Source: Acidimicrobiia bacterium (GTDB lineage Bacteria > Actinomycetota > Acidimicrobiia > IMCC26256 > JADLDD01). Taken from it: 38,757 nucleotides of DNA. Position numbers and translations under genes: made by a program. Within the stretch, counting starts at the first letter, position 1. The number at the start of each line of letters is the position of its first letter. The notes under the pieces were generated by a model, which searched no databases, was not told the DNA's origin, and saw only the letters and a program-made list of their open reading frames with translations. Shown here in pieces: positions 4,250 to 25,058 of this stretch. The stretch is taken from contig JADLDD010000022.1 of the NCBI GenBank assembly GCA_020846855.1, forward strand, positions 1 through 38,757. The letters are read 5' to 3'.

Positions 4250-4624
4250 TCAGCCGGTGGCGGCGTCGGCCGAGGCGGCCACGGAGGCGTGGACCTGCTC
4301 CATGTCGAGGTCGCGCACCTTGCCGATCAGCTCGTCGAGCACCGCGGCCGGCAGCGCGCCGGGCTGGGAGAACACGAGGACACCCTCCCGGAAGGCCATG
4401 AGGGTGGGGACCGACATGATCCCGGCCGCGCCCGCCAGGTCCCGCTCCGCCTCGGTGTCGACCTTGGCGAAGACGATGTCGGGGTGCTGCTCGGCGGCGG
4501 CCTCGAACACGGGGCCGAACATCCGGCAGGGCCCGCACCACGACGCCCACCAGTCGACCAGGACGATGTCGTTCCCGGCGACGGTGTCGTCGAAGGTGGA
4601 TCCGTTCAGGGCGATGGTTGCCAC
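4250..4624 (-). CDS. trxA: Thioredoxin
   Basis: The 124-residue protein has the active site WCGPC at residues 29-33 and the cis-proline loop SVPT with Pro73, in the normal spacing of a single-domain cytoplasmic thioredoxin. The redox-active cysteines are Cys30 and Cys33. It reduces protein disulfides using thioredoxin reductase, which is not in this window. The GTG start is fixed by AGGAGG at 4631-4636, six bases upstream. A -10-like TATAGC (minus strand, 4662-4667) lies inside a palindrome of the CsoR-family operator type, so expression is probably controlled by a metal- or sulfur-responsive CsoR-like repressor encoded elsewhere. The C-terminal extension after residue 105 is slightly long and alanine-rich. 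Confidence 0.93.
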   Translation of the reverse strand: MATIALNGSTFDDTVAGNDIVLVDWWASWCGPCRMFGPVFEAAAEQHPDIVFAKVDTEAERDLAGAAGIMSVPTLMAFREGVLVFSQPGALPAAVLDELIGKVRDLDMEQVHASVAASADAATG

Positions 4625-4664
4625 GGCCTACCTCCTAGTAGTGGGGCCGGGGGCTGCAACGGCT

Positions 4665-4680
4665 ATACCCCCTGGGGTAT
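4665..4680. promoter_or_regulatory. CsoR-family type operator palindrome
   Basis: ATACCCC-CT-GGGGTAT is a perfect 7+7 inverted repeat. Its TACCCC...GGGGTA form is the layout known for CsoR/CstR-family repressor sites. It overlaps the minus-strand -10 hexamer of the thioredoxin gene and lies 30 bases upstream of the plus-strand -10 of the crotonase gene, so it could control one or both. Confidence 0.6.
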
Positions 4681-4709
4681 TCCCCGAGGCCGGCGGCCGA
4701 GGTCGGAGG

Positions 4710-4715
4710 TACCCT
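4710..4715 (+). promoter_or_regulatory. -10 hexamer TACCCT, leaderless start of crotonase gene
   Basis: Ends 7 bases before the GTG at 4723, so transcription should begin at or next to the start codon. No Shine-Dalgarno is available. Confidence 0.55.
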
Positions 4716-4722
4716 CGGTCCC

Positions 4723-5424
4723 GTGGCATCGAGCGACGACGTGCCGCCCGACGACGTGCTCCTGGTCGAAGGGCCCGACGACGGGGTGGCGACCCTCACC
4801 CTGAACCGACCCCGGAAGCACAACGCGCTCTCGATCGCCCTGCGCGACGCCATGAGTGACGCTCTCGACGGGCTCGCCGCCCGGGACGACGTGAAGGTCG
4901 TCGTCCTCACCGGCGCGGGGGAGACGTTCTCGGCCGGGTTCGACCTCCGGGAGTTCGAGCGCGTCGCCACGGAACCCGACCTGGGGCCGGTCCTGTGGGC
5001 GTCGGCCGATCGGTTCCACCGGACGGTGGCGCACTTCCCCTTGCCGATCGTCGCCGCGGTGAACGGGCCCGCCCTGGCCGGCGGCTTCGACCTCGCCGTG
5101 ATGTGCGACGTACGGGTCGCGTCCACCACCGCCCGCTTCGCGCATCCGGAGCTCCGCTTCATCGAGGCGCTCTACGGCCCGCTGCACGACGTGGTCGGCG
5201 GCGGGATGGCCCGTGACCTCTGCCTCACCGGTCGCACCGTCGACGCCGCCGAGGCGCTGCACATCCGGCTGGTCTCGAGCGTGGGCGAACCCGGACTCCT
5301 CGCGCAGGAGGCGCGCCGGTTCGCCGACCTCATGGCCGGAGCCCCCCGCGAGGTGATGGTCACCATGAAGGCGAAGATCGTCGCCCGGGCCGGCCTCGCC
5401 GAGGAGCTCTCCGCCGACAACTGA
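4723..5424 (+). CDS. Enoyl-CoA hydratase/isomerase (crotonase) family protein
   Basis: At 233 residues it is slightly short for the family (about 260). The N-terminal motif LNRPRKHNAL, the first oxyanion-hole segment SAGFDL (about 70-75) and the second NGPALAGGFDLAVMCDVRVAS (about 114-134, core shown) are classic crotonase. In hydratases two glutamates 20 residues apart act in catalysis. Here the first position is Asp123 (GGFDLA) and the second is Glu143 (HPEL). The IPG..GG segment that normally follows is replaced by ALYGPLHDVVGGG. The fold is sure but standard hydratase activity is doubtful; an isomerase, hydrolase or other acyl-CoA role is possible. It is divergent from thioredoxin. Confidence 0.85.
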   Translation: MASSDDVPPDDVLLVEGPDDGVATLTLNRPRKHNALSIALRDAMSDALDGLAARDDVKVVVLTGAGETFSAGFDLREFERVATEPDLGPVLWASADRFHRTVAHFPLPIVAAVNGPALAGGFDLAVMCDVRVASTTARFAHPELRFIEALYGPLHDVVGGGMARDLCLTGRTVDAAEALHIRLVSSVGEPGLLAQEARRFADLMAGAPREVMVTMKAKIVARAGLAEELSADN

Positions 5425-6811: not shown

Positions 6812-8326
6812 ATGATGAACACGCCCGACACCTCGATGACGGCCACGCCCGCCGGCTCGACCCCCGGATCCTCCGGGTCGGTCGCCGGCCGCCGGCCCCG
6901 CCGGCGCCGCGCGCTGGTGACCGCGGCGCTCATGGCGACGGCCGCGCTGCTGGCGGCCGCGTGCGTGCCCCCGGGCGGCGGCGCCGCGCCTCGCGCCGCG
7001 GTCGGCCACGAGGGCCGCTGGCTCACCGACTCCCACGGGCGGGTGCTGCTGCTCCACGGGGTCAACCTGGTGGCCAAGGTCGACGGCGAGACGCCTGCGG
7101 AGATGGGCTTCGGCGCCGACGACGCGGCCTGGCTCGCCGACAACGGCTTCGACGTGGTGCGCCTCGGGCTCACCGCCGGGTCCGTCATGCCCGAGCCCGG
7201 CGTGATCGACCACGCCTATCTCGACTCCTTCTTCACCACCGTCGACGAGCTGACCGCCGAGGGCCTCCTGGTGCTCATCGACCTGCACCAGGACGGTTGG
7301 GGCCCCACGCTCGGCAGCGACGGCTTCCCGGGTTGGATGACGATCACCGACGGCGAGCCCAACACCGGTACGCCCTTCCCGCTCTACTACGTGACCAACC
7401 CGGCCATCCAGGCCGCGTTCGACAACCTCTGGGCCGACACCCCCGGCGCCGGCGGCGTCCCGCTCCAGGAGCGGGTGGCGGCGATCTTCGAGGCCTTGGC
7501 CGAGCGGGCCTCCCACCGCCGGGGCATCCTCGGCTACGACCTGCTCAACGAGCCCTGGCCGGGTCGGGTGTGGGAGGCGTGCGCCCTCGACACCGCCCAC
7601 GGCTGCCCCGAGCAGGACGCCCGCCTCGACGCTTACAACGCCCGGATGGCGCAGGCCGTCCGCACCCGGGACCGCCGCCACCTGGTGTTCGGGGAGCCCT
7701 ACGTGCTGTTCAACTTCGGAAATGCGCCCACCAACGTCGGCCTGCCCGGCGACGACCCCCGCAGCGGGCTCAGCTACCACATGTATACGACCGACCCGGC
7801 GCTCGAGCCCGCCGTCCAGGACTTCGCGTTGGAGTGGGCCGATCGCACCGGGGGCGCGCTGCTCAACACCGAGTGGGGCGCGACCACCGATCCGGTGCCG
7901 ATCGAGCGCCAGATCTCCGAGCTCGACGGCGCCCTCGTGCCGTGGATCTGGTGGGCCTACAACGAGAACGTGATCCGCGACGGCCGGCAGCCGCCCACCG
8001 AGGCGAACCTGTGGGGCCCGGTGGTCGACGTGCTGGTGCGGCCGCACCCGGTCGCGGTTGCGGGCACCCCGCTCTCGCACGACTTCGACCCCGCGACGCG
8101 CACGATGAGCTTCACGTACTCCACCCGGCGGGTCGGGTCCGATCGCCCCGGCCCCGGCCACCCCGGTCTCAGCGAGATCAAGGTGCCGGCGCGGACCTAC
8201 CCGAACGGTTACCGGGCGTCGGTCACCGGGGGCGTGGTGGTGTCACGCCCCGGCGCCGGGGTGCTGCGCGTGTTCAGCCTGCCGGGCGCCTCCGAGGTCC
8301 GCGTCACGGTCGCTCCCGCGGTATAG
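6812..8326 (+). CDS. Endoglycoceramidase-like glycoside hydrolase family 5 lipoprotein
   Basis: The 504-residue protein has an Arg-rich n-region, hydrophobic core and lipobox LAAAC (Cys51), so it is exported and anchored. The GH5 barrel starts with RVLLLHGVNLVAK. VLIDLHQDGW forms an inner strand, the acid/base is Glu247 in LLNEPWPG and the nucleophile is Glu354 in LLNTEWGA. The C-terminal part from about 420 (HPVAVAGTPL, then a beta-sandwich ending VRVTVAPAV) follows the layout of Rhodococcus endoglycoceramidase II as I remember it. That enzyme cleaves the bond between oligosaccharide and ceramide of glycosphingolipids. The exact substrate here is inference; a steryl or other lipid glycoside is possible. 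GGGAGG lies upstream of two adjacent ATGs; the second (6815) is better spaced. Confidence 0.85.
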   Translation: MMNTPDTSMTATPAGSTPGSSGSVAGRRPRRRRALVTAALMATAALLAAACVPPGGGAAPRAAVGHEGRWLTDSHGRVLLLHGVNLVAKVDGETPAEMGFGADDAAWLADNGFDVVRLGLTAGSVMPEPGVIDHAYLDSFFTTVDELTAEGLLVLIDLHQDGWGPTLGSDGFPGWMTITDGEPNTGTPFPLYYVTNPAIQAAFDNLWADTPGAGGVPLQERVAAIFEALAERASHRRGILGYDLLNEPWPGRVWEACALDTAHGCPEQDARLDAYNARMAQAVRTRDRRHLVFGEPYVLFNFGNAPTNVGLPGDDPRSGLSYHMYTTDPALEPAVQDFALEWADRTGGALLNTEWGATTDPVPIERQISELDGALVPWIWWAYNENVIRDGRQPPTEANLWGPVVDVLVRPHPVAVAGTPLSHDFDPATRTMSFTYSTRRVGSDRPGPGHPGLSEIKVPARTYPNGYRASVTGGVVVSRPGAGVLRVFSLPGASEVRVTVAPAV

Positions 8327-11180: not shown

Positions 11181-12770
11181 TCACCGCAGCTTGCGCAGGC
11201 GGTGGTACATGGCCTTCTCGGCCTTGTGGAGTCCGGTGAACTCGCGGTGCACGGCGTCGTGGAGGGTCCGGGTCGACGGATCGGGTTCGAAGGTGCGCTC
11301 GACGGCGGCCCGGGCCGGGAGGTCGTCGACCCGGAGGTGGCCCAGGACCAGGCCGGCGAAGAAGGCGGCGCCCCGGGAGCTCACGAGCAGCGGGTCGTGG
11401 GGGCGGGCGAGCGGCCGGCCCAGCACGTCGGCGTGGATCTGGCACCACACGTCGGAGACCGCGCCGCCGCCCACCACGCGCATCCCGTCGAGCGGGTGGC
11501 GCAGGACCTTCTCCGACGCCTCGAGGAGCCACCGGGCGTTGTGGGCCACCCCCTCCAGGACGGAGCGGACCATCTCGGCGCGGGTCGTCGACAGCGAGAG
11601 GTTGTGGAAGCTGCCCCGCAGGGCGGTGTCGGCGACGGGGGAGCGTTCGCCGTTCAGCCACGGCGCGAACAGCACACCGCCGCTGCCGCTGGGTGCCTTG
11701 GCCGCGACCGCGTCGAACGCCGCCAGCGACGGCTCGGCGGGCTCGGTGAGGCCGTCGTCGGCGAGCACGAAGGTGTTGCGGGCCCACTCGGCGCACACCC
11801 CGGCCGTCTCGTGGTTGTTGGCCAGGAGGTAGCGGTCGGGCAGGGCCGACGGCACGGTGGCCATCTGGCGGCCGATGGAGGTGCGCTTGCCCGGTGTGTG
11901 GCAGCCGATCCACGCCGAGGTGCTGATCGCCATGTGCGGTTCGTAGAGCCCGACCGCCCCCGAGCCGAGCGCGGCCGTGTGCAGGTCGGGCAGCGCGGTC
12001 ACGACCGGCACGCCGTCGGGGAGGCCGATCCGGCGCGCGACCTCGAGGCGGACGGGGCCCACCTCGGACGCGACCGGCAGGAGCGGAGGTAGTCGGGACG
12101 GGTCGGCGCCGGCCAGCGCCACCAGGACCGGGTCGTAGCGCGCCTGGTCGAGCCGGCGGTTGTCGAACAGCCACGACAGGAGCATCGAGACGGGCGTGGC
12201 GCACACCCGGCCCGTCAGCCGGGCGACGAGGAAGTCGAGCGGCTCCAGGAAGTGAGCGGTGCGGCGGTAGACGTCGGGCTGCTCGTGCTCGATCCAGAGG
12301 CGCTGGCCGAGCGGGTCGTTGCCCTCGAGGCTCGGCGCGCCGCCGGCGCGGCGGATGAACTCGACCACCTTGCGGGGTCCGAACCCCTCGACCGTCACCC
12401 GGCCGCCGAGCGCCTCGCGGGCGAGGTCGCGGGCGCGGGTGTCCATCCAGAGGATGCAGTCGCCGACCGGGTCGCCCGCGGCGTCGACGGGCACCGTGGA
12501 GCCCCACTGCCCGGTCACGGCCACCGCGACGATCCGGGACCGGGCGGCGGGATGGGCCTCGACGAGCTCCCCGGCGCCTTCGAGCAGCGCCTCCCACCAG
12601 GTATCCGCGTCTTGGACCGCGGCGCCGTCGGCGCTAACCCGGGGTTCGATCCGGCGGTGCGCGGACCCGATGACGGTGCCGTCGAGGTCGACCAGGGCGA
12701 TCTTCGGCCCGCCGGTGCCGAGGTCGACGGCCAGGACGACCGGCGCCTCCCCGGCTCCCTCGTCGCTCAC
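11181..12770 (-). CDS. FGGY-family carbohydrate kinase (xylulokinase-like)
   Basis: The 529-residue protein has the ASKHA phosphate-1 motif DLGTGG at residues 16-21, TGQWG (85-89), WMDTRARD (about 107-114), the catalytic-aspartate region VTALPDLHTAALGSG, and the C-terminal adenosine motif with GMRVVGGGAVSDVWCQIHADVLGRP. It should phosphorylate a sugar or polyol with ATP. The substrate cannot be read from sequence; xylulose-like ketoses are most usual. The GTG start overlaps the stop of the saccharopine-dehydrogenase-like gene by four bases (GTGA), so it is translationally coupled and last in the operon. Confidence 0.88.
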   Translation of the reverse strand: MSDEGAGEAPVVLAVDLGTGGPKIALVDLDGTVIGSAHRRIEPRVSADGAAVQDADTWWEALLEGAGELVEAHPAARSRIVAVAVTGQWGSTVPVDAAGDPVGDCILWMDTRARDLAREALGGRVTVEGFGPRKVVEFIRRAGGAPSLEGNDPLGQRLWIEHEQPDVYRRTAHFLEPLDFLVARLTGRVCATPVSMLLSWLFDNRRLDQARYDPVLVALAGADPSRLPPLLPVASEVGPVRLEVARRIGLPDGVPVVTALPDLHTAALGSGAVGLYEPHMAISTSAWIGCHTPGKRTSIGRQMATVPSALPDRYLLANNHETAGVCAEWARNTFVLADDGLTEPAEPSLAAFDAVAAKAPSGSGGVLFAPWLNGERSPVADTALRGSFHNLSLSTTRAEMVRSVLEGVAHNARWLLEASEKVLRHPLDGMRVVGGGAVSDVWCQIHADVLGRPLARPHDPLLVSSRGAAFFAGLVLGHLRVDDLPARAAVERTFEPDPSTRTLHDAVHREFTGLHKAEKAMYHRLRKLR

Positions 12771-14020: not shown

Positions 14021-14458
14021 CTAACCGGCGGGCTCGAGGATCACGACGGGGATGTCGCGCTCGGTGTTGGCCTGGTACTCGTCGTACGGGGGCCAGACCT
14101 CAAGCGCGTACCCCCACCACTCCTCCTTCTCCTCCGGGCTCGCGGTGCGGGCCCTGAGGTCGAGGACGGTGTCGTGGTCCTGGAGCGTGACGCCGGGGTC
14201 GGCGACCAGGTTCAGGTACCACTCCGGGTGCTTCGGCGCCCCGCCGAGCGAAGCGACCACGGCGTACCGGCCGTCGTGCTCGACGCGCATGAGCGGGACC
14301 TTGCGCAGCTTGCCGGACCGGCGGCCGCGGGTGGTGAGGATCACGCAGGGCTTGCCCTCCAGGGTGCCGCCCTCCCGGCCACCGGTGCGCTCGTACTGCT
14401 CCACCTGGTCGCGCACGGGGTCCCAGGGGCTCGGTTCGTACTCACCGTCGAGAGGCAT
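14021..14458 (-). CDS. Deazaflavin (F420)-dependent nitroreductase family protein
   Basis: At 145 residues it has the full length of the mycobacterial Ddn-like family. The segment VILTTRGRRSGKLRKVPLMRVEHDGRYAVVASLGG (core TTRGRRSGKLRKVPL and VVASLGG), followed by PEWYLNL and the C-terminal WPPYDEYQ and RDIPVVIL, are its hallmarks. The family binds F420 and reduces quinones or nitro-compounds. This implies that the host makes F420, which is inference. A -10 TACGTT (minus, 14465-14470) ends six bases from the ATG, predicting a leaderless transcript that reads on into the saccharopine-like and kinase genes. Confidence 0.9.
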   Translation of the reverse strand: MPLDGEYEPSPWDPVRDQVEQYERTGGREGGTLEGKPCVILTTRGRRSGKLRKVPLMRVEHDGRYAVVASLGGAPKHPEWYLNLVADPGVTLQDHDTVLDLRARTASPEEKEEWWGYALEVWPPYDEYQANTERDIPVVILEPAG

Positions 14459-17383: not shown

Positions 17384-17989
17384 TCAGCGGGTGACGGGCC
17401 GGCGGGCCCGCACCAGCGCGTCGATCGCCGTGCGCTCGGCGCCGTCGATGGTGACCGGGCGGCGGACCCGCTCGGCCCTCTGGACCCACACCGACGGCAG
17501 GTGGGTGGCGAGGCTCTCGGGTGTCGCCAGGACGTCGGGATCCTGAGGCCCCCCGGCGCCCTCGGCGATGTTGGTCACGTCGTGGCCGACGATCAGGATC
17601 GTGCCTCCGGGTGCGAGCGCTCCCGCGGCCCGCACCAGCACCGGCGTCAGCTCGGGCTCGGGGAGTTGCAGGTAGAGGACGACCACGAGGTCGAACGCGG
17701 CGGGCTCCGGCTCGTAGTCGTTCAGGTCGGCGGCGACCCACTCGACCTCCACGCCCTGCGTCGCCGCCAGGTCGCGAGCCTTTCCGAGCCCGACCTCGGA
17801 GAAGTCGACCCCGGTGACGTCCCATCCGTTCCGGGCGAGCCACACCGCGTTCCGGCCGTGGCCGCAGGCGAGGTCGAGAGCCCGTCCGGGCGAGAGTCCG
17901 GCCGCCTCGGTGACGAGAAAGCGGTTCGGCTCCTCACCCCAGAGCAGGCCGGTGGTGGCGTAGCGCGCGTCCCATGCGTGTCGGTCCAT
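17384..17989 (-). CDS. Class I SAM-dependent methyltransferase (TehB/thiopurine methyltransferase-like)
   Basis: The 201-residue protein opens with WDARYATTGLLWGEEPNRFL, typical of small TehB/TPMT-like methyltransferases, followed by the SAM motif I ALDLACGHGRNAVWLA (about 37-52) and the acidic motif VTGVDFS. VAADLNDYEPEPAAFDLVVVLYL is motif II/III. The substrate is unknown; relatives methylate thiols, tellurite or selenium compounds. It ends ten bases from the convergent DUF2231 stop. A -10 TAGCCT (minus, 17998-18003) ends eight bases before the ATG, again pointing to a leaderless mRNA. Confidence 0.85.
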   Translation of the reverse strand: MDRHAWDARYATTGLLWGEEPNRFLVTEAAGLSPGRALDLACGHGRNAVWLARNGWDVTGVDFSEVGLGKARDLAATQGVEVEWVAADLNDYEPEPAAFDLVVVLYLQLPEPELTPVLVRAAGALAPGGTILIVGHDVTNIAEGAGGPQDPDVLATPESLATHLPSVWVQRAERVRRPVTIDGAERTAIDALVRARRPVTR

Positions 17990-17997
17990 GGGGCCCG

Positions 17998-18003
17998 AGG
18001 CTA
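17998..18003 (-). promoter_or_regulatory. -10 hexamer TAGCCT, leaderless start at 17989
   Basis: Eight bases separate it from the methyltransferase ATG. No ribosome binding site is present. Confidence 0.45.
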
Positions 18004-18090
18004 AGCACGCGCGGTCGGGTCGGGGCTCATCGCCGCCCCGGAAACGCCGTCGCGTGCAACGCCGGCTCCGGAACGCCGGCCCGGGAACGC

Positions 18091-18123
18091 GGTGAGGGGG
18101 CGGCTCGTCGCCGCCCCCTCACC
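18091..18123 (-). terminator. Perfect 14-bp hairpin after the DoxX gene
   Basis: GGTGAGGGGGCGGC and GCCGCCCCCTCACC pair without mismatch around the loop TCGTC. It lies 25 bases past the DoxX stop and before the methyltransferase promoter. Confidence 0.75.
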
Positions 18124-18147
18124 GGGAGGATCCGGTCGGTGGCGGTG

Positions 18148-18726
18148 CTACCGGAGCGCAGGCACCCGTCGCACCAGCGGGGTCCGGGCCCACCAGCGGC
18201 CCAGGCCGACGGTGTCACCCGCGTGGGTGAGGGCGAGCCCGACCAGCACCAGCGCGTAGACGATGTGGTCGTCGACGACATGGTTGTTGGCGAGGGGCAG
18301 GCTGGCCATCCACATGAGGACCATCATCGCCGCACCGCTCACCGCCGCGACCCGCATGCCGATCCCGAGCAGGAGCGCCAGGCCGATCGCGGCCAGGCCG
18401 ACCATGAACAGCCAGTCGGCCCATGCCGCCCCGGCCAGGTTGTTGAACATGTCGCCGAACGGTCCCTTGACCCCCTTGAGGAAGCCCGTCGTCGGGGACC
18501 CGCCGTCGATCCAGGCGTTGGCCTCGGGGGTGGCCCGTCCGAGACCGAAGAGCTTGTCGACGAACGCCCAGAGGAAGACCCACGCGAGGGCGATGCGCGT
18601 CACCGCCCAGACGTAGGGTGCGACAGCGGCCCGGTCGGTCCGGTCCTCGGTCGCCACCCGTTCGACCACCCGGGCCGGACGCTCCCGGACCGGGGCCTTC
18701 CTCGCGTGGTCGATGGTGACACTCAT
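18148..18726 (-). CDS. DoxX family membrane protein, 192 aa
   Basis: ATG with GAGGAGG upstream, an ideal ribosome binding site. After a basic, soluble N-terminus (1-38) there are four hydrophobic segments: ALAWVFLWAFVDKLFGL (about 46-62), the segment at LFMVGLAAIGLALLLGIGM (core, about 107-125), AVSGAAMMVLMWMASL (about 127-142) and IVYALVLVGLALTHAG (about 154-169). The first helix with FVDKLFGL matches the DoxX entry motif. DoxX proteins are linked to quinone-coupled sulfur or thiol redox at the membrane, but the function of most actinobacterial members is unproven. Confidence 0.8.
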   Translation of the reverse strand: MSVTIDHARKAPVRERPARVVERVATEDRTDRAAVAPYVWAVTRIALAWVFLWAFVDKLFGLGRATPEANAWIDGGSPTTGFLKGVKGPFGDMFNNLAGAAWADWLFMVGLAAIGLALLLGIGMRVAAVSGAAMMVLMWMASLPLANNHVVDDHIVYALVLVGLALTHAGDTVGLGRWWARTPLVRRVPALR

Positions 18727-18891
18727 GATGCCTCCTCAGTCCTCTTCCCCCCCGGGAGAGGCTCGCGTCGCGCGTGTACGTCCCGAACCTACGCAGGCAG
18801 CATCAAGAGCGATAGAAGCCTTTGGGCCGATCAGGGGTGCCGATGGTCCCGACCCGGACGGGGGCCCGGCCCCGGCGGTCGCCGCCGGCGT

Positions 18892-18897
18892 TACGCT
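18892..18897 (+). promoter_or_regulatory. -10 hexamer TACGCT, leaderless start at 18905
   Basis: Ends seven bases before the ATG at 18905, which decides the start of the first gene of the three-gene chain. The rest of 18727-18904 contains only the DoxX leader. Confidence 0.5.
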
Positions 18898-18904
18898 GGA
18901 CTCG

Positions 18905-19357
18905 ATGCCCGGCCACGCCCGCTCCCTGCCCGAGCTCGGCCGCCGCCCGGTCCGCTGCGGTGGCTATCCCCGGACCGGCCCGTTCGACTACGGGTCGGGC
19001 GACGATGCCGGCGCGCGCGCAGATGGCGAGCCCGGCGGCGTGGTGGCGCCAGGACCCGGCGCGTGGAGCTGGGCCGACGGGCCGATCGAACCCGATGCCT
19101 TCCGGCCCAGCGCCATGGACCGGATCCGGCGGTCGGGCCCCGGGGCGATGCTGGCCGCCGCGATGCTCGGCCTCGCCGAGGTGATCGAGGGCCGGCCACC
19201 CCGGGAGGAGATCGCGATCGTGACCGAGGCGCCGGGCGAGCCGTTCCGGCGCGTGGAACTGCGCCTCGATCCCGTCCACAAGGAGCGCTCGCTCGTGATC
19301 GTCCACGCGGAGGCGCCTCCCGCACCGTCCCCGCACCCGGACGCCGACCGCCGGTGA
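18905..19357 (+). CDS. Hypothetical protein coupled to HtrA, 150 aa
   Basis: The start is placed at the ATG behind the TACGCT -10. The frame is open upstream to 18713 but has no start signal there. There is no signal peptide or membrane segment. The N-terminal half is low in hydrophobic residues (Gly/Pro/Asp-rich). The C-terminal half (MLAAAMLGLAEVIEGR; EEIAIVTEAPGEPFRRVELRL; ERSLVIVHAEAP) predicts a helix followed by a beta meander. I do not recognise a family. Its TGA overlaps the GTG of the protease gene by four bases, so its product is made in step with the protease. Confidence 0.6.
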   Translation: MPGHARSLPELGRRPVRCGGYPRTGPFDYGSGDDAGARADGEPGGVVAPGPGAWSWADGPIEPDAFRPSAMDRIRRSGPGAMLAAAMLGLAEVIEGRPPREEIAIVTEAPGEPFRRVELRLDPVHKERSLVIVHAEAPPAPSPHPDADRR

Positions 19358-20463
19358 GCCCCCGCGGCCGCCACGGTCGGTTCGGAGCCGTCGCGGTGCT
19401 GGCCGCCGCGGCCCTCACGGCCGCGCTGCTGGCCGGCTGCTCGGACTCCTCGGGCGGTTCGGGATCGACGGCGTCGACCGAGGCGGTCGGCAGGTCGGGC
19501 TCGCAGCCCGGCGTGGATTCCGGTTCCGGCGCCGGGGGCCTCGACGTCCCGGCGATCCTGGACGAGGTCCGCGGCTCGATCGTCACCGTCACGGCCCGGA
19601 CCGTCTCGGTCGGGAGCCTCCTCGAGCCCTCGCCGCCCGCCCAGATCGGCTCCGGATTCGTGTTCGACGCCTCGGGCCTGATCCTGACCAACCACCACGT
19701 GGTCGCCGGCGGCGACACCATCGGCGTCACGTTCGTCGACGGCAAGCGGTACCGCGCGAAGGTGGTCGGCTCCGACGCCCGGACCGACCTCGCGGTCCTC
19801 CGCATCGAGGCCGACGGCCTGAAGGCCCTCGCGCTCGCGTCTAAGCCACCGGAGGTGGGGGCACCCGTCGTGGCGGTGGGCTACGCCCTCGCCCTCCCCG
19901 GCGGCCCCACGGTCACGTCGGGCATCGTGTCGGCCGTCGACCGCACCATCCGGGAGCCCAACGGAGCGGTGCTGACCCACCTCCTGCAGACCGACGCCGC
20001 CATCAACCCCGGCAACTCCGGTGGTCCGCTCCTCGATGCCCGAGGTGTGGTCGTGGGCGTCAACACCGCCAAGGAGGCGAGCGCGGCCGGCATCAGCTTC
20101 GCCATCTCGGTGGCCAACGCCGCGGCCGACATCGAGGCCCTCGCCACCCGGGGCCGCATCGCGCACCCGTTCATAGGAGTCGAGCTCGCCGACGCCACGC
20201 CGTCGCTCGCGGCGCGCTTCGACCTCCCGGTCGACTCCGGCGCCCTGGTCACCTCGGTGGTGTCCGGCAGCCCGGCCGACGAGGCGGGGATCGAGGCCGG
20301 CGACGTGATCGTGGAGGTCGGAGGCGAGAAGGTGGTGGCGGCGGCCGGCGTCACCGAGGCGCTGGCCTCGCGCGAGCCCGGCGACGAGATCACCCTGCGC
20401 ATCGCCACCGCCTCGGGCGCGCGGTCGGTGAAGCTGACCCTGGGGACCGCGCCGTCGTCGTGA
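19354..20463 (+). CDS. HtrA/DegP-type serine protease lipoprotein with PDZ domain
   Basis: The start is the GTG at 19354, in a GTGA overlap with the preceding stop; upstream extensions in this frame are noise. The 369-residue protein has lipobox LLAGC (Cys29), a Ser/Gly linker (30-60), a trypsin-like domain (about 70-255) with catalytic triad His115 (LTNHHVV), Asp145 (RTDLAVL) and Ser222 (NPGNSGGP), and one PDZ domain (about 270-369; SGSPADEAGIEAGDVIVEVGG). It should degrade or chaperone misfolded exported proteins at the outer face of the membrane. Lipid anchoring in place of the usual transmembrane helix is notable but known. Its stop overlaps the start of the aminopeptidase. Confidence 0.92.
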   Translation: MSPRGRHGRFGAVAVLAAAALTAALLAGCSDSSGGSGSTASTEAVGRSGSQPGVDSGSGAGGLDVPAILDEVRGSIVTVTARTVSVGSLLEPSPPAQIGSGFVFDASGLILTNHHVVAGGDTIGVTFVDGKRYRAKVVGSDARTDLAVLRIEADGLKALALASKPPEVGAPVVAVGYALALPGGPTVTSGIVSAVDRTIREPNGAVLTHLLQTDAAINPGNSGGPLLDARGVVVGVNTAKEASAAGISFAISVANAAADIEALATRGRIAHPFIGVELADATPSLAARFDLPVDSGALVTSVVSGSPADEAGIEAGDVIVEVGGEKVVAAAGVTEALASREPGDEITLRIATASGARSVKLTLGTAPSS

Positions 20464-23816: not shown

Positions 23817-25058
23817 TCAGCGCAGCGCGCTGCCGGCGAGCCACTGGTCCCAGGAGGTGTTCCAGTCGGCGGTCCCGGCGTCGGTGGTCGAGGGGGGGCG
23901 GGTGGACCCGGTCACGACGACGGCGTCGCCGGGCCGGCTGAAGTTGAAGAACCACTGGGCGTCGGCGGGGGCGAGGTTCACGCACCCGTGCGAGACGTTC
24001 GCCCGGCCCTGGGAGTCGACCGACCACGGCGCCCCGTGCACGAACTCGCCGCTGTTGGAGATCCGGACGTTCCAGAAGGTGGTGGTGAGGTAGCCGTCGG
24101 GGGAGTTGCGCGGGATGCCCACGGTGGCGGAGTCCATCACCAGCTTCTGCATCTTCTCGAGCACCATGTGGGTGCCGTTCTGGGTGGGGTAGCGGTCCGC
24201 CCCGGCGCTCTGGTCGAAGGTCTTCACGGGGGCGCCGTCACGCGTGACGACCATCTTGTGGGTCCGGACGTCGACGTAGCTGACCTGCGCGTCGCCGATG
24301 CGGAACGACACGTGGATGTTCCGCTCGCCCCACACACCTCCGCCCGCGTCGACGCCCTCGAGCGCGGCATCGACCTCGACGGCGGTGTGGGCCGGCCAGA
24401 AGGAGCGGGGACGCCAGCGGACCTCGTGGTCGGAGACCCAGCGCCACCCACCCTCGACCGACGGTCGCGACGTGACGGCCAGGCGCCTCTCCACCGCGGC
24501 GCGGTCGGCGACGGGTGCCCGGAACTGCACCACGACGACCTGGGCCACGCCCGCCACGGCGTCGTCGCCGGGGCTGACGATCGGCCCGAGTCGGGCCGTG
24601 GGCGTGAGGGTGGTGAACGACGATCGGGTGGTCGTCGGGCCGTGGGCCGACCTGACCGTGGCGGTGACCTCGTAGCGGGTCCCGAGCGCGAGGGCCGCCG
24701 ACGACGTCCAGCGGGTGCCGTCGGCACTGAGCGACCCGGTCGCCGTGTCGGCGGTTCCGGTCCCGGGACCGGTTCCCGCTCCGGGGGCGCCCACGGCACC
24801 CACCGGCCGCAACCTGACGGCGACCAGGCGGCCGTCGAGGACGGCTACGTCGACGGGGGTGTCGGGGCGGACACCGGTGGCGCCGTCGGCGGGCGAGATC
24901 CGGACGGCGGCGTCGGGGACGTCGCCGAGCAGCGCACTCCGGTCCGGGCCGCCGGTGTCGAGCAGGGGTTTCGCGGCGCGAGCGCCGGGCACGGCCGCCA
25001 CCCCGACGAGGGCACCGGCCGCGACGATCAGCACCGTGGCGACTAGGACCTTCTTCAT
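23817..25058 (-). CDS. L,D-transpeptidase with Ig-like domains (LdtMt2-like), 413 aa
   Basis: Sec signal peptide (MKKVLVATVLIVAAGALVG..., cleavage near ARAA, residue 28). Two Ig-like domains follow (about 50-270; AVRISPADGATGVRPD and RLGPIVSPGDDAV mark their starts). The YkuD catalytic domain (about 275-385) contains EFVHGAPWS and the active site SHGCVNL with Cys359. The C-terminal extension WNTSWDQWLAGS is the typical actinobacterial tail. It makes 3-3 cross-links in peptidoglycan and is intrinsically resistant to most penicillins, though not carbapenems, in studied relatives. First gene of the operon with DUF3097 and Nudix. The promoter must lie in the 67-base divergent gap. Confidence 0.93.
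   Translation of the reverse strand: MKKVLVATVLIVAAGALVGVAAVPGARAAKPLLDTGGPDRSALLGDVPDAAVRISPADGATGVRPDTPVDVAVLDGRLVAVRLRPVGAVGAPGAGTGPGTGTADTATGSLSADGTRWTSSAALALGTRYEVTATVRSAHGPTTTRSSFTTLTPTARLGPIVSPGDDAVAGVAQVVVVQFRAPVADRAAVERRLAVTSRPSVEGGWRWVSDHEVRWRPRSFWPAHTAVEVDAALEGVDAGGGVWGERNIHVSFRIGDAQVSYVDVRTHKMVVTRDGAPVKTFDQSAGADRYPTQNGTHMVLEKMQKLVMDSATVGIPRNSPDGYLTTTFWNVRISNSGEFVHGAPWSVDSQGRANVSHGCVNLAPADAQWFFNFSRPGDAVVVTGSTRPPSTTDAGTADWNTSWDQWLAGSALR

Follow-up and report, generated by a model that had tools for sequence, protein, structure and literature searches.

A predicted persulfide-repressor operator within a putative SigR/SigH-type thioredoxin promoter of an acidimicrobial genome and its relatives

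Persulfide-sensing repressors and SigR-type promoters in described systems

ScCsoR (SCO0620) of Streptomyces coelicolor is an actinobacterial CsoR-family repressor and persulfide sensor; promoter fragments were tested by EMSA, and a subsequent motif analysis gave its consensus operator, ATACCn6GGTAT (PMC7533328). It resembles the system described here in the 29-residue spacing of its cysteine pair (C37/C66, compared to C35/C64 in the present protein), its operator and its autoregulation, and its target types persulfide dioxygenase, rhodanese and sulfite transporter are also found beside the motif in relatives of the present genome. In contrast, its targets are given as csoR, pdo, rhod and the sulfite transporter gene, and the available text reports neither a thioredoxin target nor an overlap with a SigR promoter (PMC7533328). 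A second counterpart is CstR of Staphylococcus aureus, a CsoR-family tetramer with a dithiol site (Cys31/Cys60) that responds to persulfides, as outlined in a review (PMC9774590). CstR and the cst operon differ from the present case in belonging to a different phylum. S. aureus CstR lacks the Cu-ligand histidine, and the cst targets are of the rhodanese, CoA-persulfide-reductase and TauE types. To our knowledge, no cst promoter of S. aureus is embedded in an ECF-sigma promoter.

The sigma factor side has its counterpart in the thiol-stress regulons of SigR-RsrA and SigH-RshA in Streptomyces, Corynebacterium and Mycobacterium, in which the partner is a zinc anti-sigma factor and GGAAT-N18-19-GTT promoters include those of thioredoxin-system genes (PMC10012870, PMC5005934). 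The former source gives GGAAT-N18-19-GTT as the actinobacterial SigR/SigH consensus, and the latter gives GGAAT and GTTG as the promoter elements. Unlike at the locus described here, no CsoR/CstR operator in the spacer of such a promoter, and no other link between CstR/CsoR and SigR/RsrA, was found in the literature searched, which covered few subscription journals. The same physiological output, thioredoxin under sulfane-sulfur stress, is known from S. coelicolor, where thioredoxins are polysulfide-induced and their overexpression raises H2S release; there, however, control is by AdpA, which acts globally and activates directly, and not by a CstR repressor at a SigR promoter (PMC9952706).

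The palindrome upstream of trxA and the repressor predicted to bind it

The window, i.e. the whole stretch of 38,757 nucleotides that was analysed, has the following features at the locus:

4250-4624, minus strand: trxA, encoding a 124-aa thioredoxin with WCGPC (PF00085, 1.8e-23; TIGR01068 over its cut-off)
4631-4636, minus strand: Shine-Dalgarno sequence AGGAGG, by direct reading, with 6 nt between it and the trxA start codon GTG at 4624
4658-4660, minus strand: predicted SigR/SigH-type -10 element GTT of trxA, 18 nt from the -35 element
4665-4680, no strand assigned: palindromic operator ATACCCC-CT-GGGGTAT, a predicted CstR-type repressor site
4679-4683, minus strand: predicted SigR/SigH-type -35 element GGAAT of trxA (composite match G000:C22:4658-4683:-)
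4723-5424, plus strand: crotonase/enoyl-CoA hydratase gene (PF00378, 3.5e-38), a neighbour only

Direct reading and a window scan both show the palindrome, which lies between trxA and the divergent crotonase gene, to be a perfect 7-2-7 repeat with zero mismatches, as the initial annotation had claimed. It fits ATACC-N6-GGTAT, the ScCsoR motif of the S. coelicolor persulfide sensor. In the 2.35 Mb assembly of the same genome (124 contigs, approximately 83% complete), this motif occurs three times, compared to zero for the reversed control. One copy is the trxA site; contig C39 carries the remaining pair, which is spaced by 33 bp and lies directly upstream of a CsoR-family gene, in the intergenic region that separates it from a divergent MMPL-family transporter gene. 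A profile search found no second CsoR-family gene (PF02583) in the assembly. The initial annotation had proposed a CsoR-family-type site at the trxA promoter, to be dropped if the genome had neither further palindrome copies nor a CsoR-family gene; the two additional motif copies and the gene on C39 support the proposal.

The C39 protein (89 aa) matches PF02583 (CsoR/DUF156) at 3.0e-21 and 77 bits, against a cut-off of 22.8. In the alignment, Cys35 and Cys64 form the conserved pair, 29 residues apart, and Gly60 replaces the Cu-ligand histidine four residues before the second cysteine, so that the protein has Cys-Gly-Cys in place of the Cys-His-Cys copper site. For 91 CsoR-family proteins of relatives, a tree based on 84 alignment columns and uncertain in its inner branches separates a C-H-C side from a CstR-like side with 100/99 support; the C39 protein falls inside the latter, where 40 of the 42 rows are without the histidine. 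The two exceptions, in genomes G268 (L286) and G361 (L287), look like secondary gains inside the clade. Structures related to the C39 protein in the PDB include 7MQ1/7MQ2, the second of which is described as CstR in the review (PMC9774590). Because the histidine is missing, the protein groups in the CstR-like clade and it has these solved relatives, a persulfide sensor is far likelier than a copper sensor: persulfide or sulfane sulfur is the likely signal, and copper an unlikely one. The protein that binds the palindrome is very probably a repressor that senses persulfide rather than copper. The initial annotation had left the signal as copper or persulfide and had suspected a sulfur link; such a link is possible, and of the two signals persulfide is the one that fits, since the sole family member found is without the histidine and groups with CstR-like proteins.

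The distribution of the motif among relatives points in the same direction. A CstR-clade gene is present in 25 of the 100 genomes of the relatives sample, and 22 relatives with the gene have 53 motif sites, compared to one in the reversed control. The strict form, ATACCC-N4-GGGTAT, has 41 occurrences in these 22 genomes but just two in a set of 36 without the gene. The genes adjoining the motif, in a list that covers annotated genes (some sites adjoin unannotated ones), are cstR and those for MBL-rhodanese (persulfide-dioxygenase-like) proteins, a rhodanese lipoprotein, TauE/SafE, YgaP-like transmembrane proteins, a pyridine-nucleotide-disulfide oxidoreductase-rhodanese of the CoA-disulfide-reductase type, DUF302, a CitMHS permease, MMPL transporters and thioredoxins. 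As annotated, this set is what a sulfane-sulfur regulon would be expected to contain.

If a canonical CsoR or RicR repressor bound the palindrome instead, trxA would be tied to copper stress. The operators of CsoR, RicR and ScCsoR/CstR do resemble each other (PMC7533328), and a second CsoR gene could be missing from an assembly that is only 83% complete. However, the only family member found lacks the histidine ligand, and 31 of the 36 genomes without a CstR-clade gene have another CsoR-family protein, C-H-C wherever the sequence was read, and yet share just the two strict motifs. Additionally, many of the annotated motif neighbours are sulfur genes and none was identified as a copper exporter or chaperone, which leaves copper control of trxA improbable and a persulfide-sensing repressor as the preferred reading.

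Several motif neighbours are of separate interest. A double operator precedes the MMPL-family transporter gene in the present genome (L009 1863-1911; G000:C39:28557-28605), and in two relatives (L134, L148) MMPL-family genes likewise have CstR-type operators, double or single, in front of them; an MMPL exporter would be an unexpected member of a persulfide regulon. In two genomes, CstR-type operators precede DUF302 genes (L144 2592, L155 2570), suggesting a sulfur-stress role for this uncharacterised family. Similarly, a CstR-type operator lies upstream of a thioredoxin group other than the window ortholog in G073 (L149 2495) and G041 (L151 1217), suggesting that thioredoxin was recruited to CstR-type control more than once. 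A full persulfide-dioxygenase set was not recovered from the present genome (83% complete), as the search for a persulfide-dioxygenase-rhodanese gave only weak partial matches. A CoA-disulfide-reductase-like protein (41%) is encoded on contig C64, which has no motif copy.

The trxA promoter and its gene neighbourhood

A search of the 99 other genomes by protein sequence alone, without use of the motif, gave TrxA orthologs in 37 of them, at 51-74% identity; identity to other thioredoxins is at most 47%. Judged by these values, TrxA belongs to a specialised orthologous group, distinct from the other thioredoxins of the genome. GGAAT-N18-GTT is present in 28 of the 38 orthologous trxA upstream regions, compared to a mean of 0.05 and a maximum of 2 in 500 shuffles, and each of the other spacings from 10 to 27 occurs at most twice. 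Named Streptomyces trxA orthologs carry it as well. At the window locus, the palindrome fills the 18-nt spacer between GGAAT and GTT, and on the minus strand the AT of GGAAT doubles as the first AT of the palindrome.

The initial annotation had instead read TATAGC (4667-4662, minus strand) as the -10 element. This hexamer lies inside the spacer of the better-supported ECF promoter, and a scan of 4550-4800 found no sigma-70-like promoter; in view of the negative scan and the conserved GGAAT-N18-GTT, TATAGC was rejected, and its assignment as -10 is probably wrong. The candidate sigma factor of the genome is a SigR/SigH-like protein that scores 250.3 bits, 1.3 under the NCBIfam SigH cut-off of 251.55, and the sigma gene is followed by one for a zf-HC2 anti-sigma factor with HxxxCxxC (HLDECPPC). 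SigR autoregulation was considered for this genome and rejected, as a scan of the 300 nt in front of the sigma gene revealed no SigR motif. None was seen in the cstR/mmpL promoters.

Could the operator be of CstR type, but act on a housekeeping promoter, with GGAAT and GTT being incidental? TATAGC and the lack of a SigR motif near the sigma gene would fit such an arrangement; the sigma-70 scan, the recurrence of GGAAT-N18-GTT in 28 of 38 ortholog upstream regions with a strong preference for a spacing of 18, and its presence in the Streptomyces orthologs do not, and we regard a housekeeping promoter as improbable in comparison to a SigR/SigH-type one.

A third possibility is that the palindrome, with only 42 bp between it and the start of the crotonase gene, serves that gene, alone or jointly with trxA; the initial annotation had favoured a shared operator. 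However, no crotonase gene adjoins trxA in any other trxA or composite locus examined, the palindrome in relatives follows trxA and not its neighbour, and no promoter was recognised on the crotonase side. The crotonase gene was rejected as a joint target because its adjacency to trxA is not conserved, and a role of the palindrome in its expression is quite unlikely; trxA remains the predicted target.

An SQR-like flavoprotein, which the initial annotation had placed 4 kb away, was likewise rejected, as the ORFs scanned around the site contain no pyridine-nucleotide-disulfide oxidoreductase domain in Pfam. Elsewhere, the window encodes a GH5 glycosidase with a GH5 C-terminal domain (6812-8326, plus strand), an FGGY carbohydrate kinase (11181-12770, minus), an F420H2-dependent quinone reductase (14021-14458, minus), a trypsin-PDZ (HtrA-like) protein (17974-20463, plus) and a YkuD L,D-transpeptidase (23817-25058, minus).

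The composite element across genomes and its proposed mechanism

A search of 395 genomes of the class for the exact composite of promoter and operator, GGAATACC-N6-GGTAT-N4-GTT, gave 25 occurrences in 23 genomes, compared to 0 for the reversed control and approximately 0.08 expected from base composition alone. All 25 precede thiol-redox or sulfur genes: trxA in 21 cases (at L170 and L173 the start chosen by the script is internal to a gene of this trxA family), peroxiredoxin in two (G298, G206), thioredoxin reductase in one (G206) and a YgaP-like gene in one (G029). The carriers span 10 families, and the composite is conserved while its flanks are not, although the fixed letters of the element had served for selection. 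A CstR-clade gene is present in 22 of the 23 composite genomes, compared to the 25 of 100 in the relatives sample; in the remaining one, G331, none was found in the assembly. Similarly, in the set of 38 genomes with a trxA ortholog, the gene is present in 10 of 10 with the 7-2-7 palindrome but in only 5 of 28 without it (Fisher p = 6e-6), with the qualification that these genomes share ancestry, so that p-values overstate independence and the number of families or genera is the better guide. Several CstR-clade genomes have a trxA without the 7-2-7 palindrome.

That the palindrome arose by chance in GC-rich DNA has a negligible probability, as the genome-wide, cross-genome and co-occurrence counts contradict it, even if the statistic is weak within the window alone, where matches are not rare once up to 3 mismatches are allowed (1 match compared to 0.54 in shuffles).

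Genome G206 has three composites (C3:297786, C4:493017 and C5:70863; L180, L191, L192) over trxB, peroxiredoxin and trxA, i.e. over the whole reducing chain. G268 and G361, whose CstR-clade proteins have the histidine, both carry the composite at trxA; a second CsoR-family gene was found in neither.

The position of the operator varies. In other genomes it lies just after the -10 element, offset by 28-51 from GGAAT; among these are named members of other actinobacterial groups, namely an Intrasporangium MAG, Actinotalea subterranea (L195) and an Actinomycetales MAG. The in-spacer form is found in an Actinomycetes MAG (L208). That the operator moves around a SigR promoter that stays fixed suggests repeated selection for CstR control of this promoter.

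Sequence comparison establishes the operator, the repressor gene with its adjoining operators, the missing histidine, the clade, the promoter motif and its spacing, the composite and the co-occurrence. With considerable confidence, we propose that the CstR-like repressor encoded on C39 acts on the operator inside the SigR/SigH-type trxA promoter and blocks it until persulfide causes its release. Weighing against this reading are the sigma score below its cut-off, the lack of a SigR motif at the sigma gene and at cstR/mmpL, the composite in G331, the histidine in G268 and G361, the failure to find a convincing persulfide-dioxygenase-rhodanese, and the CstR-clade genomes whose trxA lacks the palindrome. 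As to DNA binding, inducer, sigma use, AND logic and enzyme substrate, we infer the following course of events. In reduced cells, RsrA would hold SigR, and a CstR tetramer would sit between the -35 and -10 elements, keeping trxA off. CstR would be an off-switch on a SigR promoter because a CsoR-family tetramer in this position should exclude RNA polymerase. If persulfide or polysulfide builds up, Cys35, with or without Cys64, would be modified and CstR would leave the DNA; if thiols are oxidised, RsrA would release SigR, and the SigR holoenzyme would then transcribe trxA. Thioredoxin would in turn reduce persulfides to H2S and thiols. Full trxA expression would need both persulfide and thiol oxidation, an AND-type logic, and such two-condition control would suit a thioredoxin whose job is persulfide reduction.

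Beyond this locus, the composite is probably a recurrent AND gate for genes of the thioredoxin system: the operator of a persulfide repressor occupies exactly the 18-nt SigR spacer and overlaps the -35 element at its AT. Its targets would be trxA and, depending on the genome, trxB, peroxiredoxin or a YgaP-like gene as well. At least 10 families of one actinobacterial class would have this gate, and other actinobacteria would have versions in which the position of the operator is shifted.

The CstR and SigR sensors are each well known, but have been studied apart. If true, a merged promoter would bear on how bacteria tell persulfide, i.e. reactive sulfur, from general disulfide stress, and on when thioredoxin is committed to persulfide reduction. 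It also makes a direct prediction, namely one 26-bp element with two mutually exclusive DNA-bound proteins and two separable inducers. Thioredoxin, thioredoxin reductase and peroxiredoxin would thereby join the likely CstR regulon of a large, mostly uncultured actinobacterial group.
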